Shown here one piece after another: positions 4,261 to 11,116 of a stretch of 20,612 bases of DNA. Position numbers and translations under genes: made by a program. The DNA comes from a virus. The notes beneath the pieces are model-generated. The model saw only the letters and a program-made list of their open reading frames with translations. It was not told where the DNA came from and did no database searches. Positions within the stretch are counted from its first letter, which is position 1. Every line of letters begins with the position of its first letter. The stretch lies in the IMG/VR virus record IMGVR_UViG_3300035228_001505, positions 1-20,612 of that record. One strand, 5' to 3'.

Positions 4261-4488
4261 TCAGTCCTCATAAACAAGGCATTCTGGTTCTGATGGGTTT
4301 GTGTCACAAAATAGTTCTAGTGGTGTTGGATCGTGATGATCTCCTTCCTCAATTTCTTTTTTGTGATGTTCAACGTAATCTTCCAATTCATGCAACTCAC
4401 CCTCAATGTGGCGACGTTGATTGGGTGAGATCATAGGGTTGTCAAGGATCTCTTTGTCCTTTTCGATATGTTTTTCGATGCTTTCCAT
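4261..4488 (-). CDS. CP12-like small protein
   Basis: 75 aa, highly charged. The C-terminus (PLELFCDTNPSEPECLVYED) matches the C-terminal CP12 signature CxxNPxxxECxxYxD. In CP12 of cyanobacteria and chloroplasts this Cys pair forms the redox switch that binds GAPDH and, with it, PRK to inactivate the Calvin cycle. Total length equals that of typical cyanobacterial CP12. The helical middle (IEGELHELEDYVEHHKKE) lies where the AWD_VEEL core normally sits but lacks that core, and the N-terminal Cys pair is absent. CP12 is a known auxiliary metabolic gene of cyanophages. This copy is unusual in lying between two hub genes, 3 nt before gp5. Alternatively it could be a structural or assembly protein that borrowed the CP12 tail. 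I see no clear Shine-Dalgarno. Confidence 0.65.
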   Translation of the reverse strand: MESIEKHIEKDKEILDNPMISPNQRRHIEGELHELEDYVEHHKKEIEEGDHHDPTPLELFCDTNPSEPECLVYED

Positions 4489-4509: not shown

Positions 4510-5814
4510 TTATATTCTATATGAATCTCGGACCAAATTCAGTGATGTTGTGTTTTGACCACCTGCAACATCAAAATGATGTCTTAAACTGCGAATTAAA
4601 TAATTACCACTCGACTCCTTGTCTACAGATTTTTCATCAGGATTCGATGGTCCGACAGTAGGGAAGATAATTCTAATTAATTCCCCCGCTTTTAAATTCA
4701 CATTGCATGGTACTACAATATTTAGTGACTGTGTAAACAACAAGTTATATCTAGAAAATGATTTAGCCATGTCGGAATTATCTCTACCACTACCTTCAAC
4801 TAAATTATCACCTTGCATACCAGTATCCCCAATCCTGACAAGAATTCTAGTGGCAGTGTCAGTAATCGCACCGCCAGGCAGTTCCATATCTGTCCCTAAT
4901 TGTGGATCGAAGTGTTCTTTAATTTTATAAGAAAAGGCATCAAACTTCCAACTTACAGGATTATAAAAATATGTCAAGTTTGAATATAAACCAACTCTCA
5001 TATTTTTAATTAAATCTGTATTTTTATCAAGATATGAATGAATAATTTTAAATGTGGAATCTCCTTGTTCCACAACATTTGTAGATGTATAAGTTGTAAT
5101 ATCTTTGGTGTCTGCCGATGTCGTACTCACTGTTTGACTACACATGGTGTCGATAGATTTAAAGTGGAATCCATCTTGGTTCTCGAAGAAAAAGAATCCA
5201 GAAGTTCCAACAGCTTCTGCATTAGTTCCCGAACCAGATGTACCTGAAACCTGGGCAGTATTTGAGAATGGGATTGATTTGGGGGCTAACCATGTGCAAG
5301 TATGGAAGGGTTTTTTCTGATTACCCATAAATCCATAAGCGTTTGAAGTCTTCTCCACAAATATTCTATCAGAATCAATTTTCAATAAATTTCCTAAAAT
5401 ATTTTCTACATGTGTAGAAATAGCGGCTTTTTTAAATCTAGTTTGGCATCTAGTCGCTTCATTATCAAAAACTGATTTTGTTGCACAAGCCAATGTAAAG
5501 GTTTCTATTCCATCCTTAGTAACCAAATCTTGGACACCAGTTACAAATAAAGGATTTTCCTCGTTATATTGTAATTTTCCAAGTGATGTATCAATTGTCA
5601 AATCCAGTCGATCAAATCCCCTAATAGGTAACTTATGATATAAATTATCGGTGTCTGCACACGTAAGGTAACACGTAACAGAGGGGTTCAGTAAATCCTC
5701 AAAGTAATCAATACTTGAAATAGCCCTACTAAAACTATAAGCCTTTTCATTAACTTCACCAGAAGAAGTCAGATAAGCTTCGGAAATTTTGATATTTGCA
5801 AGGGAAGAACTCAT
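4510..5814 (-). CDS. gp27: gp27-like baseplate hub subunit
   Basis: 434 aa, near the size of T4 gp27 (391 aa). The C-terminus (GELIRIIFP, then GNYLIRSLRHHF, then LNLVRDSY) has the pattern of the last beta domain of gp27 / late-control-D type hub proteins, where a tube-like fold ends in a conserved LVRD-type tail. The N-terminal region (SIDYFEDLLNPSVTCYLTCADT, DRLDLTID) fits the first gp27 barrel. Position supports this: it is upstream of gp5 and downstream of gp26, as in the T4 hub gene set, and gp27 and gp5 form the hub complex. It starts in an ATGA overlap with the preceding M23 gene. Identity rests on pattern and context, not on a strong local motif. Confidence 0.65.
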   Translation of the reverse strand: MSSSLANIKISEAYLTSSGEVNEKAYSFSRAISSIDYFEDLLNPSVTCYLTCADTDNLYHKLPIRGFDRLDLTIDTSLGKLQYNEENPLFVTGVQDLVTKDGIETFTLACATKSVFDNEATRCQTRFKKAAISTHVENILGNLLKIDSDRIFVEKTSNAYGFMGNQKKPFHTCTWLAPKSIPFSNTAQVSGTSGSGTNAEAVGTSGFFFFENQDGFHFKSIDTMCSQTVSTTSADTKDITTYTSTNVVEQGDSTFKIIHSYLDKNTDLIKNMRVGLYSNLTYFYNPVSWKFDAFSYKIKEHFDPQLGTDMELPGGAITDTATRILVRIGDTGMQGDNLVEGSGRDNSDMAKSFSRYNLLFTQSLNIVVPCNVNLKAGELIRIIFPTVGPSNPDEKSVDKESSGNYLIRSLRHHFDVAGGQNTTSLNLVRDSYRI

Positions 5815-7685
5815 GATCCTGATAACTGTGTGAGTAAGATTGACTGTGAGATTGTAGCCATGTCTACACCATTGGCAACATTATTACCTCCATTAGATCC
5901 ACCACTAGACATGAAATTGGGCATCGATTTATGTTTTTGTGGTAACTGATTACTAGCTATAATAGTATTATTTACTCTATTCGGTCTATTATAAGATGGA
6001 TACTGATTTACTGGAGGTTCTTGACGTTTAGTTGGAGTTATTATCGATGGAGGAAGTTCAACACTATTGGATTGAGGGGGATTTGCAGTCGAAGATGCAT
6101 CAGGGATAGTGGAGGCCTTTTGTGGGTCTACTTTAGCCTGTTTGTCCAGTTTATCTTCATATAATACTAATTTATTTTCAAATTCGTCTAAACTAATAGG
6201 TTTACCATTTACATCAAAATACTTATCTTCTCGAGCTCCTATAAAATTTCTACCCAAAACATATGTACCAACTTCAGGAATACGTACTTTTTCATCAACT
6301 CTAGAAATATCATGAGATGATTGCAGTTCTTCAAGTTTTTCAGTTAATACTGCCAAGTTATCTTTTTTGTCCTTGGATTCTTTTTGTGTCGGTATTACTT
6401 TTGTTTGTGGAGCAGAAGAAGATTGAGGTTCTACTGGTGGAACTGTTGGGTTAGGATTTGACGGTTGAATGGATGTTGCATTATTTACTTCTGCAAATGG
6501 GATTTTATGTAACCCACCTAAGAATTTACTAGACTGAGAAGCACTGTATCGTTCATAAGTTCCTTGTTTATATAATTCCAGATGCAAGTGTGTATCTTTA
6601 TATTGAGTTTCTTCTCCGCCCAGAGGAACGAGAGTACCAATAATTTGTCCTCTAGTAATTGCATCTCCAGGTTGCACACTTGGATTCATATGCAAGTATC
6701 TTGCATCAATATTGAGGTCTGCATGATTAATCATTACACCAGCAAGATATGCATCCTTACTGCCATTATATCTCTCATCAATAACTACACCATCCGACAT
6801 TGCAATAATTGGAGTTCTGGGATTTTTCCTATATGGAGTAGTTTCTGCTATATCAGTTCCATGGTGCATTCTACCATTTCGCATCCCAACAGGAGAAGAA
6901 ACATAATTTCCACCTGGGAATGGGTGCAATCCACCAGATCCATAGTTAGAAGTATTAATTTTACGTGATACTGGTATCGCAATTGAAGATATAGGTTGGG
7001 ATTGTGTTGTTTGTCTTGCTGATACTGGAATACCTTGAGTAAAAATACCTGCACTAGCAAGTGTTCCAAACAGTGTAACACCCGAAGCAAATTTACCTAT
7101 ATTTAATTTTTTAGTATTTCCTTCTGTCCATTTACCAGGACCAAAATCTTCTGGAGTTCTTGGCGTAAGATTTTTTCCATATGATCTAGTTTGACCCGTC
7201 TCTAAAAAATAAATTTGTTCATCTAATTCTTGTGCAACTCCAGTGATCCAATCCCACCAGTTTAAATTCTTTTTTTGTTCATATAATGCTCTAAGTTTTT
7301 CTTCCCTAGTTCCAGGGGCTTTTGCTGTTTTCCTTTCATTGGTATTAATTAATCCAGGAACAAGAGCAGGTAACCATGCCCCTGCAGTGCCAAGAATAAC
7401 TGCAATAGATGCACCTTGCAGCATACGACCTAGCAATGCATTAGTTGCCATACCAAATGGAGACGGCAAACTTAACGCAAACCCTCCCTTACTATTCTTA
7501 CCTATAACAGACAAATCAATTGTCTTAAGGTATTTCATTCTATTTTTGGAAGGAAACTTAAAGTTCCTCAGTTTACTATCGTTACGTCTTATAAACTTAC
7601 TAAACCGTACAATTGCTTTTTCCGTATCCGCAACAGGACCCCTTACACCTTCCGCTACTGCTCTAATGTTAATTGGTTTAGCCAT
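5811..7685 (-). CDS. Tail-associated M23-family metalloendopeptidase
   Basis: 624 aa. An M23 (lysostaphin/LytM-type) domain spans about residues 255-380. Zn ligands are visible as H274 and D278 in the HHGTD motif and H368 in HLHLE. The catalytic histidines are H332 (RYLHMN) and H366. The GD-x(5)-GQIIG strand typical of the family is at ~340-350. M23 enzymes cut peptide cross-links of peptidoglycan, so this likely opens the cell wall during infection. The N-terminus is basic, with a hydrophobic segment at ~91-113, and the C-terminal ~200 residues are Pro/Ser/Asn-rich and probably disordered. A hydrophobic segment plus a wall hydrolase is typical of tape-measure-type tail proteins. It starts by TAATG overlap with the lysozyme-domain gene and overlaps gp27-like by ATGA. 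Confidence 0.85.
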   Translation of the reverse strand: MAKPINIRAVAEGVRGPVADTEKAIVRFSKFIRRNDSKLRNFKFPSKNRMKYLKTIDLSVIGKNSKGGFALSLPSPFGMATNALLGRMLQGASIAVILGTAGAWLPALVPGLINTNERKTAKAPGTREEKLRALYEQKKNLNWWDWITGVAQELDEQIYFLETGQTRSYGKNLTPRTPEDFGPGKWTEGNTKKLNIGKFASGVTLFGTLASAGIFTQGIPVSARQTTQSQPISSIAIPVSRKINTSNYGSGGLHPFPGGNYVSSPVGMRNGRMHHGTDIAETTPYRKNPRTPIIAMSDGVVIDERYNGSKDAYLAGVMINHADLNIDARYLHMNPSVQPGDAITRGQIIGTLVPLGGEETQYKDTHLHLELYKQGTYERYSASQSSKFLGGLHKIPFAEVNNATSIQPSNPNPTVPPVEPQSSSAPQTKVIPTQKESKDKKDNLAVLTEKLEELQSSHDISRVDEKVRIPEVGTYVLGRNFIGAREDKYFDVNGKPISLDEFENKLVLYEDKLDKQAKVDPQKASTIPDASSTANPPQSNSVELPPSIITPTKRQEPPVNQYPSYNRPNRVNNTIIASNQLPQKHKSMPNFMSSGGSNGGNNVANGVDMATISQSILLTQLSGS

Positions 7686-9361
7686 TATCCGTCAACGATG
7701 TTATATACGATTCTTGAATACATGGTATGAATATTTCCCATATCAAATGGTGCGAGGAAAGGAACTCTACCTCCTTCAGTATCGGGCATAGTAACATTTG
7801 GTTGTCCCTGTCCCTGTTCCTGTTGGGTATTGCCCATATTTAGTGGAATAATATTAGTTTGAACATCATCTTCAGTGATAATTTGTTCTGGAGACTGAGC
7901 AATAGTTTTAGAAGCTTCCAATCTCAATTCTGATCCATCTATTGATGGATTCAATCCAGTTGCACTCCCGTAGTTACTATATGCTGCGTTATACGTAGAC
8001 ATGAAATTTGCAGTATTTACGTTTGGCTGACTTCCTCCAGGTAAGGAAGGCCATCCCATATCTACAGATAGTTTTGGAACAACATCTGACATTAGGTTAC
8101 CATCCCTAATAGACTGAATCATTCCCTGTTCACCACCTTTTCCACCTTGGATGCCATACACTTTGGTCATGTATGATCTCATCATTCTGTCTTGATTTGA
8201 CTTGGTAAATTTATCCTTATTCAGATCAAGTCCAGCGTCTATTGCAGTTTGTCTATGGAAATCTGGATGGAATTGATATGCACCAATTGCACCTGTTGTA
8301 GTATCTCCCTTTCCTTGCATACTCTCACCAGCTTGGAAAGCTTGTTCAATAGTCAGTCCTTCAAGATTGACACCATGATCAGTCTGACCTTGAATAGCAT
8401 TTACATCACCTTCTCCAGCAGAAACTGCATCCATTAAAGCGAGCATTTCTGGCGCAGCATTTGGAAGAGAAATACCACTACCAGAAGCAGTTCCCATAGG
8501 TGTGCTCGTAGGTTGAGCACTGGATTCTGGTTTTAAGTCGATTCCTCCAGGACCTTTAGAGTCGTTGCCATCTTGTGGAGTGATCGCACTTCTAATTCCC
8601 TCAAGAATAGACGAAAATTCTTCAACAGTGGAGTTGAATAACGCAACATCCATATTATCAGGCATTCCAGTCAATGACTGTTGTTGTTGAACTCCTCCTG
8701 TTGGAGGAGGGGTTCCACTAATTTGTCCACCTTGTGGGGCAGGACCTTCTTTATCTGCTTTTTGCATCTGATCATACGTGATCTTTGCAGCAAAAGCAGC
8801 AGTAACTGCAAGAGCAAGAGTTTTTAATCCACCCAATCCCATCCCAGGAGATTTTGTGGAACCCAAATTCTTAGCAGCACCAGCTAGTTGAGTAATTAAC
8901 TTTAATATAATATCTCTGGATTGGAATATAAAGTCGAATGTCCTCTGTAGAGGTTGCATTAAACTCATCAAATTCTGTTGGAATCTTTGGAGTTCGTCTA
9001 GTCCACCCCTAAAGATTCGGGCCAACATTTCGTTTGGATCAAACGAATTTACTTGTCTTTCTACTCTTTCCGAGATGTTAGGAATAAGTCTATTGACTTT
9101 ATTTTCTACAATCTGATTAATTTTGGTTACATTGATTCCATCAGATTCTTGTTGTGGATCTGGAGGCTGCAAAAGACCTTGCGCTACACCTACAAGTGGA
9201 GATCTAGCAGGTTGTACTCTTGAAGATCCTGCAACTCCCGATTTTCCTCTACCAAAGAAATCTGTAGAAGCACTAGTATTTTGCCTACCACCACGAAAAA
9301 ATGCCCCAGGGTTAAACCTGGACATTCTTGGCATTATTCGTGGTGTAATAGGACTACGCAT
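7685..9361 (-). CDS. Tail protein with lysozyme/lytic-transglycosylase-like domain; tape-measure candidate
   Basis: 558 aa. Residues ~303-460 resemble phage muramidase/lambda-type transglycosylase domains. They show an acidic motif (SAGEGD, candidate catalytic Glu E317), then a GAIGAYQF block (357-364) like the G-x-YQF motif of that family, then a SNQDRMMRSYM helix. The substrate would be peptidoglycan glycan strands. The N-terminal 200 residues are basic and helical with a hydrophobic segment (~178-198), followed by a Gln/Pro/Gly-rich linker. It lies directly after the gp26/63-codon chaperone-like pair, the place where the tape-measure gene sits in many tailed phages, and is close in length to T4 gp29 (590 aa). 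The start codon lies 8 nt inside the preceding ORF with no obvious Shine-Dalgarno, so coupling is likely. Confidence 0.65.
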   Translation of the reverse strand: MRSPITPRIMPRMSRFNPGAFFRGGRQNTSASTDFFGRGKSGVAGSSRVQPARSPLVGVAQGLLQPPDPQQESDGINVTKINQIVENKVNRLIPNISERVERQVNSFDPNEMLARIFRGGLDELQRFQQNLMSLMQPLQRTFDFIFQSRDIILKLITQLAGAAKNLGSTKSPGMGLGGLKTLALAVTAAFAAKITYDQMQKADKEGPAPQGGQISGTPPPTGGVQQQQSLTGMPDNMDVALFNSTVEEFSSILEGIRSAITPQDGNDSKGPGGIDLKPESSAQPTSTPMGTASGSGISLPNAAPEMLALMDAVSAGEGDVNAIQGQTDHGVNLEGLTIEQAFQAGESMQGKGDTTTGAIGAYQFHPDFHRQTAIDAGLDLNKDKFTKSNQDRMMRSYMTKVYGIQGGKGGEQGMIQSIRDGNLMSDVVPKLSVDMGWPSLPGGSQPNVNTANFMSTYNAAYSNYGSATGLNPSIDGSELRLEASKTIAQSPEQIITEDDVQTNIIPLNMGNTQQEQGQGQPNVTMPDTEGGRVPFLAPFDMGNIHTMYSRIVYNIVDG

Positions 9362-9545
9362 TACGTTTCGATGATTCTAATTGCTTACGTTTCAAATTCT
9401 CTTCTTCAATGTGCGATCTTAAGAGACCAACATAAATGTCTCTCTCCCAAGAAACCATGTTTTCAATTTCTGTCAAAGAATATTTATGGAACTGCATTAA
9501 AGCGAAGTTGATTCTGTAATATGCCTCAAGATCAATATGAGACAT
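9354..9545 (-). CDS. Short helical ORF, probable frameshift extension of gp26
   Basis: 63 codons from the ATG. The product is helical and charged (LEAYYRINFALMQFHKYSL, then WERDIYVGLL). It can be read alone, because its ATG lies in a TAATAATG context just after the gp26 stop, but no Shine-Dalgarno is at proper distance: the nearest purine run, GGAGGG, is about 25 nt away. The frame is open upstream of the ATG (CGC CTA ATA) back into the gp26 slippery site, so a -1 shift would give a gp26 fusion of about 305 residues. T4 has gp51 at this position, but gp51 is far longer. Small extensions like this match the gpT-type part of tail-assembly chaperones. Function is inferred. Confidence 0.65.
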   Translation of the reverse strand: MSHIDLEAYYRINFALMQFHKYSLTEIENMVSWERDIYVGLLRSHIEEENLKRKQLESSKRNA

Positions 9546-9547
9546 TA

Positions 9548-10270
9548 TTAGGCGAAAAAACTCGATAAACCCTCCAAAACGACTGTGTTCTCTTTTTTGG
9601 TATTAGGATTCATGACTTTGATTTCATGACGAAGTTTAGGCATAGTTTCAAAGAACTGTTCAATTTTTTTGAATTGTTCAGAAGTCAAACTTTCTACCCA
9701 ATCCCTAAGTTCTTTTTTAGAACATTCGGAAGCAACCCACGCATCATCATTAGTATAAACTTGTTCAATACAAGAACAGATAATATCAAAAGATCTCTCC
9801 ACTTCACTATCATCTACAGATCTGACACTAAAATTAGTATCAATAAATTGACCCATAGTTGGATACTTCATTCTAAGAACATACCCCTGACCAAGTTCTA
9901 AGTCTTGGTTATGATCTGGATGCTTTTCAACTTGAATTTTATCGATTGGTATGGATACATTAATTTTAGTTTCTCCATCATCGCCACAAGTGACAACAAT
10001 ATCTATAGACTCACCTACTGACTTGCCACGAATATTTAAGAACAAATATTCAATATCAAAACTAGGTAGATCTTCAATCTTAACTCTACCGATAACGCAT
10101 TCTTTTAAAACTTGTTTAACAGCTATGCTAATTTGATTAGTGTCCTCACTTTCAAGGGCTAAGATAAGAATTTTTTCTTCTCTTACCAGAAATGGTCTAT
10201 ATTTAATTTTTTTGCCACTTGAAGGCAATACCAATTCGTATTGGGATGTCGTAATCTTTGGTAAAGGCAT
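9548..10270 (-). CDS. gp26: gp26-family baseplate/tail-assembly protein
   Basis: 240 aa, like T4 gp26 (208 aa; T4 baseplate protein family). The N-terminus (LPSSGKKIKYRPFLVREEKILILALES) and the following helix-rich region with a cysteine-containing beta section (IDIVVTCGDDGETKINVSI) are typical of the family. The protein has no signal or membrane segment. In T4, gp26 belongs to the hub assembly pathway. In position and architecture this gene also resembles the first member of tail-chaperone pairs that precede the tape-measure gene. It ends at a slippery heptamer that would extend it into the next ORF. The ATG at 10270 lies about 25 nt downstream of a late-promoter-like motif. Confidence 0.8.
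   Translation of the reverse strand: MPLPKITTSQYELVLPSSGKKIKYRPFLVREEKILILALESEDTNQISIAVKQVLKECVIGRVKIEDLPSFDIEYLFLNIRGKSVGESIDIVVTCGDDGETKINVSIPIDKIQVEKHPDHNQDLELGQGYVLRMKYPTMGQFIDTNFSVRSVDDSEVERSFDIICSCIEQVYTNDDAWVASECSKKELRDWVESLTSEQFKKIEQFFETMPKLRHEIKVMNPNTKKENTVVLEGLSSFFA
9554..9575 (-). promoter_or_regulatory. Candidate -1 programmed frameshift signal at the end of gp26
   Basis: On the minus strand the last gp26 codons read AGT TTT TTC GCC TAA. The heptamer T TTT TTC (9560-9554) is in the correct X XXY YYZ phase. A GGAGGG (9575-9570) lies 9 nt before the heptamer, close to the spacing of the stimulatory Shine-Dalgarno in E. coli dnaX. After slippage the frame reads CGC CTA ATA ATG and continues through the 63-codon ORF. 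Lambda gpG/gpGT and P2 gpE/E+E' use equivalent signals; P2 uses the similar T TTT TTG. Sequence evidence is good; use in vivo is untested. Confidence 0.65.
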
Positions 10271-10294: not shown

Positions 10295-10302
10295 TATTTA
10301 TT
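10295..10302 (-). promoter_or_regulatory. Candidate late promoter upstream of gp26
   Basis: The minus strand reads AATAAATA, fitting the NATAAATA form of T4-type late promoters reported for cyanophages (T4 consensus TATAAATA). It lies in the 30-bp gap between gp54 and gp26 and would start RNA roughly 15 nt before the gp26 ATG. The region is AT-rich, so a chance match is possible. Confidence 0.4.
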
Positions 10303-11116
10303 AGGCTATTGTTGATGTTGTAGTTTCAATCTGACCATCTCTCAACCATTGTTGAGTTAGTGTATTTGGTCCACTCTGAAACTCTCCAACCAACAATGAG
10401 TTATCTTGGTTATTAATACTTCTTCTACCCGATTGTATGATTACTTTTCTATCATATCTCATATTGATGGTTACTTTAAGTAATTGTGCAGCATCATATG
10501 AAAGTGGAATACTTTCGATATTTGTTGGAAAAGCATTTACGAATGCATAGACAATATTATCACGATAATCTCGTTCAAATTTTGTGATAGAAATCATCCT
10601 TCTATAACTGTCTGGATATCTAAATCTATACATTACGCTTTTTTGATCTATCAAAGATTCATATCCACCAGGACTTCCAGATGTAAGTTTATTGGGAGCA
10701 TAGATTGGATTAATATAGTTAACCCATTCTTCAAATAATCTAAGTGTCTGGTAATCTGAAGAAACGTAAAATGTAAATGCAACCTCCATATCTCTTCTGG
10801 GACCAGAAAAAGACTCATACATTCCTTGACGATCTCCAAAGGTTTCAAAGGGAGCTAAGCTTGTTCCAGGGATAAATGTTTCGGAACATAAAAAATCAAA
10901 TCTTCCTGGATCATCTTTCCCGAATACACCAGAACTAGTCAACCAAGCACTTAAGTCGGAATCGTTACTAACTCCAGCAAATTTTGCTAGATGAAGTGAT
11001 ACCTTGAAGTTATTAGTAGTTGCAGGTGATTGTAATTGTGCAGCAAACGTACCATCATTTGTTCTTGATTTTCCTGTTTCACCAAGAAAGGATTTGAGTT
11101 GCTGTAAAATTCCCAT
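10301..11116 (-). CDS. gp54: Baseplate tail-tube initiator gp54-like protein
   Basis: 271 aa (T4 gp54 is 320 aa). The fold signature is that of tube-type proteins: NNFKVSLHL early, CSETFIPGTSLAPFETFGDRQGMY where the first sheet begins, a DMEVAFTFYVSSDYQTLRLFEEWVNYI segment, and LLKVTINMRYDRK near the C-terminus. gp19, gp48 and gp54 share this fold. The gene faces gp48 across a divergent promoter region, and gp48 and gp54 together cap the baseplate where tube polymerisation starts, so gp54 is favoured over gp19. The ATG at 11116 has almost no leader if the palindromic late motif upstream is its promoter, and no Shine-Dalgarno is visible. Confidence 0.65.
   Translation of the reverse strand: MGILQQLKSFLGETGKSRTNDGTFAAQLQSPATTNNFKVSLHLAKFAGVSNDSDLSAWLTSSGVFGKDDPGRFDFLCSETFIPGTSLAPFETFGDRQGMYESFSGPRRDMEVAFTFYVSSDYQTLRLFEEWVNYINPIYAPNKLTSGSPGGYESLIDQKSVMYRFRYPDSYRRMISITKFERDYRDNIVYAFVNAFPTNIESIPLSYDAAQLLKVTINMRYDRKVIIQSGRRSINNQDNSLLVGEFQSGPNTLTQQWLRDGQIETTTSTIA

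Follow-up and report, generated by a model that had tools for sequence, protein, structure and literature searches.

The gene for gp26 in the window, as the whole stretch of DNA analysed here is called (a virus record of 20,612 bases, IMGVR_UViG_3300035228_001505), ends in a canonical slip site for -1 frameshifting, behind which lies a 63-codon open reading frame (ORF) designated gp51. It is very probable that gp26 and 'gp51' are the short and long forms of a tail assembly chaperone, produced by programmed -1 ribosomal frameshifting as in the G/GT pair of phage lambda. The observations, made on sequences and structure models, concern the sequence and phase of the site, its conservation, the missing starts of gp51 and the domain make-up of gp51 in phage T4. 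The pair is best read as a tail assembly chaperone in view of the tentative likeness of the gp26 model, the gene order and the two predicted forms. The features considered are listed below with their coordinates on the window.

10301–11116, minus strand: tail tube-like gene directly upstream of gp26 (phrog_45, E 2.8e-27; PF23849, E 7.6e-12)
9548–10270, minus strand: gp26, the short form, 240 amino acids, tail assembly chaperone N domain (PF12322 and phrog_150 matches)
9571–9575, minus strand: GGAGG inside the gp26 gene, candidate stimulator resembling a Shine-Dalgarno (SD) sequence, 10 nucleotides (nt) 5' of the heptamer (silent-site enrichment and preferred spacing in relatives)
9554–9560, minus strand: slippery heptamer T TTT TTC in X XXY YYZ phase, kept in relatives
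9548–9550, minus strand: 0-frame stop TAA, one codon past the heptamer
9354–9553, minus strand: -1 frame extension, RLI plus 63 codons (gp51 domain), the C-terminal part of the predicted long form (phrog_634 match read from the slip site)
9354–9545, minus strand: the 63-codon 'gp51' ORF counted from its own ATG, at which re-initiation is also possible
9521–9545, minus strand: candidate downstream hairpin, 9545–9538 pairing with 9528–9521, from the fold of relatives found in the cyanophage scan
7685–9361, minus strand: 558-residue ORF directly downstream, from its position a possible tape measure protein

The 3' end of gp26 reads GTT TTG GAG GGT TTA TCG AGT TTT TTC GCC TAA, and an earlier note on this DNA, made from the sequence alone, had described most of what it contains correctly. 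The heptamer at 9560–9554 is in the stated phase; GGAGGG (9575–9570) lies 9 nt ahead of it, or 10 nt when GGAGG (9575–9571) is counted; and the -1 frame from the slip site (TTT TTT CGC CTA ATA ATG, FFRLIM...) meets no stop before that of the 63-codon ORF, so that a fusion of 305 amino acids is predicted beside the 240-residue gp26, close to the 305 or so residues that had been proposed. The ATG of the 63-codon ORF starts 2 nt past the gp26 stop and, again as claimed, is not preceded by an SD sequence, the GGAGGG being located 24 nt upstream of it. The word TTTTTTC was found 14 times in the window with 10.9 expected from shuffling and is not unusual by itself; the weight of the argument therefore rests on phase, position and conservation. 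The window gp26 matched PF12322 over residues 9–240 with the domain whole (E 1.7e-72, 244 bits, cut-off 24.5) and phrog_150 with E 9.4e-79. The 63-codon ORF matched positions 60–118 of the 121 in phrog_634 ('baseplate hub assembly catalyst') with E 6e-24, improving to E 1e-25 when the gp51 frame was read from the slip site.

Conservation of the junction was followed in 281 loci, i.e. the window and 280 others, of which 160 came from two scans with window proteins, 108 from scans that used T4 gp51 and the gp26 of KVP40-like phages, a Sinorhizobium phage and Vi01, and 12 from annotated phage records; a scan of viral contigs with the gp26 of Bakedbeans found no relative. The scan loci are among the matches listed (at most 80 per scan) and hence samples, and since many contigs were fetched by two queries and loci overlap, gp26 clusters at 80% amino acid identity give the fairer count. 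The gp51 domain was found in the -1 frame of gp26 in 261 of the 281 loci by a profile seeded with -1 frame ORFs and the end of T4 gp51, matches in whose close relatives are not independent. The rest comprise 10 T4-type loci (gp26 alone plus a fused gp26-gp51 ORF), 7 that are cut off, one (L158) without a gp26 match, and two odd ones (L163 and L181), which were left out of the conservation counts. The slip site is TTTTTTC in 225 of the 261 loci, TTTTTTT in 15 and TTTTTTA in one, with none in 20; thus T TTT TT(C/T/A) stands in phase in 241 of 261 loci and in 71 of 75 gp26 clusters, the four remaining clusters carrying ATT TTC or CTT TTC. A single codon separates the heptamer from the 0-frame stop in 63 of the 71 cluster representatives.

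It is clear from these alignments that the heptamer and the upstream GAG are kept at silent sites, which was the check proposed in the earlier note. The codon before TTT ends in T in all 71 clusters with the T6 run, across seven amino acids (Ser, Asp, Asn, Ala, Arg, His and Thr), with P about 1.5e-16 from codon usage; this and the P values below treat the 71 clusters as independent although they were chosen for T6 (4/75 being without it), and indicate direction and size, not exact probabilities. The first slip codon is TTT in 71/71, compared with 482 of 744 Phe codons (65%) elsewhere in gp26, and the second is TTC in 65/71, compared with 35% elsewhere. In 55 of 71 representatives the -1 frame has arginine after the two phenylalanines, which is consistent with -1 reading and is not counted as proof of it, because any 0-frame codon starting with G gives Arg. 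Upstream of the heptamer, an SD match of at least 5 nt was present in 41 of 71 representatives (58%) as compared to 10% of 8520 in-gene control positions, and of the 66 representatives with a match of at least 4 nt, 47 have its end 10 nt away from the heptamer. Within the Glu-Gly pair that encodes this element, the Glu codon is GAG in 49/58 cases versus 488/1539 elsewhere (p 5e-16); the preceding Leu codon has G as its last base in 33/52 cases versus 389/1367 (p 5e-7).

Downstream of the heptamer, the 60 nt starting at +5 folded more stably than dinucleotide shuffles in the 71 representatives (mean z -2.04, 36/71 below -2), compared with a mean z of -0.3 and 4/71 below -2 for a control stretch in gp26. 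Many loci of the cyanophage scan share a single hairpin with the arms TATG.CTCA and TGAG.CATA and a 9-nt loop, for which 117 of 118 distinct cyanophage-scan sequences were aligned (L129 left out). In this alignment 78.3% of cells pair, against a shuffled mean of 75.0 and 22–51% in slid controls, 43 cells are altered on both sides against 26.9 in shuffles, and three of five pairing measures exceed all 500 shuffles; 104 of 500 shuffles, however, attained the number of pairs altered on both sides (4), and 32 of 500 that of pair types (11). The stretch also encodes conserved residues, and the hairpin is missing in other groups. It is thus probably a third element of the signal in part of the cyanophages only, as far as can be judged from the alignment. 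The spacing layout is that of dnaX-type bacterial -1 sites, with an SD-like element 10 nt upstream, a slippery heptamer and, in many relatives, a hairpin downstream; it differs from them in that the frameshift product is the longer one and the hairpin is not universal.

The composition of gp51 in T4 points in the same direction. That gp26 and gp51 of T4 are separate genes, as had been noted earlier, is correct (genes 26 and 51 lie on opposite strands), but this has to be amended, as T4 gp51 itself carries the gp26 domain: it holds a full PF12322 domain at residues 1–201 (E 3.9e-52), whereas T4 gp26 is that domain alone, and the two proteins find each other by BLAST (2e-6). T4 gp51 also matches phrog_634 at residues 147–246 (E 1.2e-23) and phrog_150 over the whole match 3–248 including the end of the profile, the same end that is matched by the -1 frame of the window read from the slip site (231–278, E 3.9e-5). 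Both domains lie in one ORF in 10 T4-type loci, and the predicted folds of the window gp26 and a T4-type gp51 (L173) are built from elements in largely the same order, to which gp51 adds three C-terminal helices. T4 gp51 therefore looks like the same gp26-gp51 fusion, made from one ORF, and T4 gp26 like the short form. The window is not of this type, its gp51 domain being in the -1 frame and not in one ORF with the gp26 domain: where the window has one gene and a predicted -1 shift, T4, phage 31, Krischvirus (the latter two arranged as T4) and RB43 possess a pair of genes of which one is fused. In RB43 (L283), for which profile matches are weak, fused gp51-type and gp26-type genes stand in tandem on one strand, as a tandem duplication would give.

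The chaperone reading is further compatible with the gene order, i.e. a tail tube-like gene upstream and a long ORF downstream; the 558-residue ORF has no Pfam or PHROG match and occupies the place where a tape measure gene would be. The N-terminus of the predicted gp26 structure tentatively resembles the HK97 tail assembly chaperone. In alignments of the N-terminal 85–95 residues of this model (predicted local distance difference test, pLDDT, 86) with the Protein Data Bank (PDB), the best were 3FGX (uncharacterised, Z 7.9), 2OB9 (the HK97 chaperone; Z 7.7, 83 aligned residues, root-mean-square deviation 4.0) and 3KLU (YqbN, which we take to be a phage tail chaperone relative; Z 7.0), the next being at 4.8, and a Z under 8 can mean a common arrangement. 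Searched by sequence, the PDB yielded nothing up to E 1 for either the gp26 profile or T4 gp51.

Beside this limit on the structural likeness, several results weigh against the proposal. A Foldseek search of the gp26 model against the PDB gave no match at E <= 0.001, 2OB9 being ranked first with E 0.39, and the model of a T4-type gp51 (L173, alignment A3, pLDDT 90) had no chaperone among the Foldseek-ranked PDB chains compared (best Z 3.9). Pairwise BLAST of T4 gp51 with the window gp51 found nothing, so the link between them runs via profiles, and the phrog_634 match in T4 gp51 overlaps part of its gp26 domain. In the window itself the 90 nt downstream fold like shuffles (z -0.11) and the hairpin is not significant. 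Free gp51 could be made by re-initiation in the 181 of 261 loci, the window included, that have an ATG. Finally, the 20 loci having gp51 in the -1 frame and no canonical heptamer (Vi01 of the Ackermannviridae, 18 contigs matched by its gp26, and Vibrio phage D508) do not conform to the site described.

An alternative to frameshifting is the production of two separate proteins, in which gp51 would be made by termination-reinitiation at TAATAATG with no fusion. That possibility is in keeping with the position of the window ATG just behind the gp26 stop, with the ATG that 181 of 261 loci (51 of 75 clusters) have close to where the gp51 domain begins, with GenBank records that annotate two coding sequences, gp51 as its own gene (e.g. 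P-SSM2, phiN3 and K571), and with the ribosome binding site named in the records of Mendera and Moby 13 nt before the small ORF. It is nevertheless very unlikely. In the stretch that starts at the slip site and takes in four codons of the gp51 domain, 71 of 261 loci and 22 of 75 clusters have no ATG, GTG or TTG (rarer starts not counted), and 9 loci have only GTG or TTG; an SD sequence of at least 4 nt in the 13 bases before the gp51 ATG was seen in 0 of the 49 representatives with an ATG, compared with 35 of 71 before the first ATG of the gp26 frame; and in L216, L235, L236 and L250 the gp26 stop falls inside the gp51 coding region. Two separate proteins would also not account for a heptamer held at silent sites, nor for a fusion in one ORF in T4. 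That both products are made, the frameshift fusion together with some free gp51 by re-initiation where the ATG is kept, is doubtful, though less readily dismissed: the ATG is retained in two-thirds or so of the clusters, as just given, but perhaps for its methionine or by common descent, and here too the lack of SD sequences before it counts against initiation.

Slippage of RNA polymerase on the T run, present as T6–T7 in 241 of 261 loci, could shift the frame in place of the ribosome, but bacterial runs of this kind consist of 9 A or T according to the review PMC5009743, and the X XXY YYZ phase, the third base of TTC and the SD-like element at the preferred 10 nt are ribosomal features, which makes this explanation highly improbable. 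Least credible is that the motif is kept solely by a need of the protein for Ser/Asp-Phe-Phe at its C-terminus. The two phenylalanines are indeed conserved in gp26, that of T4 included, but T4-type gp26 ends use other Phe codons (e.g. TTC TTT) or a single Phe, whereas frameshift-type loci keep TTT TTC and the preceding T over seven amino acids. On these points, slippage in transcription and a constraint on the protein alone were both rejected.

Under programmed -1 frameshifting, as regards the slippage, its rate and the role of the two chaperones, we infer the following course. Most ribosomes would end at TAA (9550–9548) and release the 240-residue short form. A fraction would pause as GGAGG (9575–9571) pairs with the tail of 16S rRNA, move back by one base on T TTT TTC (TTT-TTC to TTT-TTT) and continue to the 305-residue long form, whose end is the gp51 domain. 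If the pair works like lambda G/GT, the tape measure protein would be covered by the short and long forms together, with tail tube subunits brought in by the gp51 tail of the latter.

In lambda, gpG and gpGT bind the tape measure and, via T, the major tail protein (PMC5009743), and the short and long forms share their N-terminus through a -1 shift at the 3' end of the gene (PMC5009743), as is predicted for the window; this review also mentions the SD upstream and the hairpin downstream as parts of dnaX-type sites. The window differs from lambda in that its family has a conserved SD-like stimulator and no sequence match in the PDB. The statement of the earlier note that such frameshifting had not been described for T4-like phages is wrong for the phenomenon as such. 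Vladimirov et al. 2022 deals with the tail assembly chaperone genes of T4-like phages and is cited in PMC10885494 and PMC12846349, the latter, on phage Adele, citing it for poly-T as known -1 signals in T4-like short-form genes; the former (PRFect) mentions that in some T4-like phages a short gene together with a long, fused one takes the place of frameshifting. Adele (Vandenendeviridae/Andersonviridae) itself has a -1 shift at poly-T (GTTTTT) where the short form ends, and a conserved open frame, but belongs to other phage families, and the heptamer of the window is T TTT TTC. In other tailed phages the -1 shift for tail chaperones is well known, and for T4-like phages it seems to have been reported at least in outline. 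Among the papers listed for cyanophages together with frameshifting, none on the gp26-gp51 junction was found, and there is a fair chance that the cyanophage case is already covered by Vladimirov et al. 2022. Sullivan et al. 2010 (PMC3037559) had recorded that cyanophage and marine vibriophage gp51 is without the initial ~200 residues, and that Aeh1 is the one phage in which gp51 is missing.

If gp51 is a long tail assembly chaperone, the tape measure gp29 and a partner in the tail tube are its expected binding targets, and the cyanophage fusion might substitute for gp51. Annotation would be corrected as well, gp51 being entered as its own gene in some records and missed in others, such as those of Vi01 (L165), P-RSM1 (L168) and EspM4VN (L285), in which the domain is unannotated. 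The junction is, furthermore, a very well conserved natural candidate for a -1 site used by cyanobacterial ribosomes.

Related arrangements were seen beyond the cyanophages. Aeromonas phage AsFcp_1 (L281, Angelvirus) has GAT TTT TTC GAT TGA with the gp51 domain in the -1 frame, a layout that might account for gp51 having been called missing in Aeh1, if Aeh1 is alike. Mendera and Moby (L287 and L288) have GAT TTT TTC GGC TGA, and the gp51 profile found no gp51 domain in either, for which reason Menderavirus is only probably of the frameshift type. The ribosome binding site annotated in these two records comprises 4 bases just upstream of the slip site and is a reading that the frameshift model would replace. 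In Stenotrophomonas phage IME-SM1 (L163) the gp26 annotation runs into another frame, and gp51 lies in another frame because the record is one base shorter in that stretch; a sequencing error is likely, since 14 related records (some of them duplicates) are one base longer there and Mendera and Moby have the usual site. An apparent in-between state in L181 was discarded, as the frame of this T4-like gp51 gene breaks midway through the gp26 domain, far from the junction, which points to an error or a broken gene. The group with a non-canonical site (L165, L167, L263–L280, L285 and L286, including SKML-39 and EspM4VN) carries [A/G] ATT TTC AT(T/C) TAA, with A CTT TTC AAG TAA in L167; as 16 of the 20 loci counted above without a canonical heptamer have no ATG, GTG or TTG for gp51, some unusual -1 shift seems to be needed there.

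The T4 branch, whose gp51 consists of the gp26 domain and a gp51 end, seems to hold in two genes what others obtain from one gene and a shift. Taken together, the chances are evenly balanced that frameshifting is the ancestral means of producing the chaperone pair among T4-like phages in the wider sense (cyanophages, KVP40-like phages, Angelvirus, probably Menderavirus, Sinorhizobium and other marine phages, and Ackermannviridae), with 'gp51' mostly not a gene of its own. In this scheme the T4 branch would have exchanged the shift for duplication and fusion, Ackermannviridae would shift on [A/G] ATT TTC AT(T/C) TAA, where only the Phe tRNA re-pairs well, and cyanophages would add the tripartite signal of SD, heptamer and hairpin.

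Two other genes of the window may be mentioned. Downstream of the 558-residue ORF, a 624-residue ORF with a Peptidase_M23 domain (E 5.1e-13) lies at 5811–7685 on the minus strand. A 75-residue protein with a CP12 domain (PF02672, E 2.7e-11; phrog_627) is encoded at 4261–4488, minus strand, inside the tail module, where it adjoins a gp5-like lysozyme gene.

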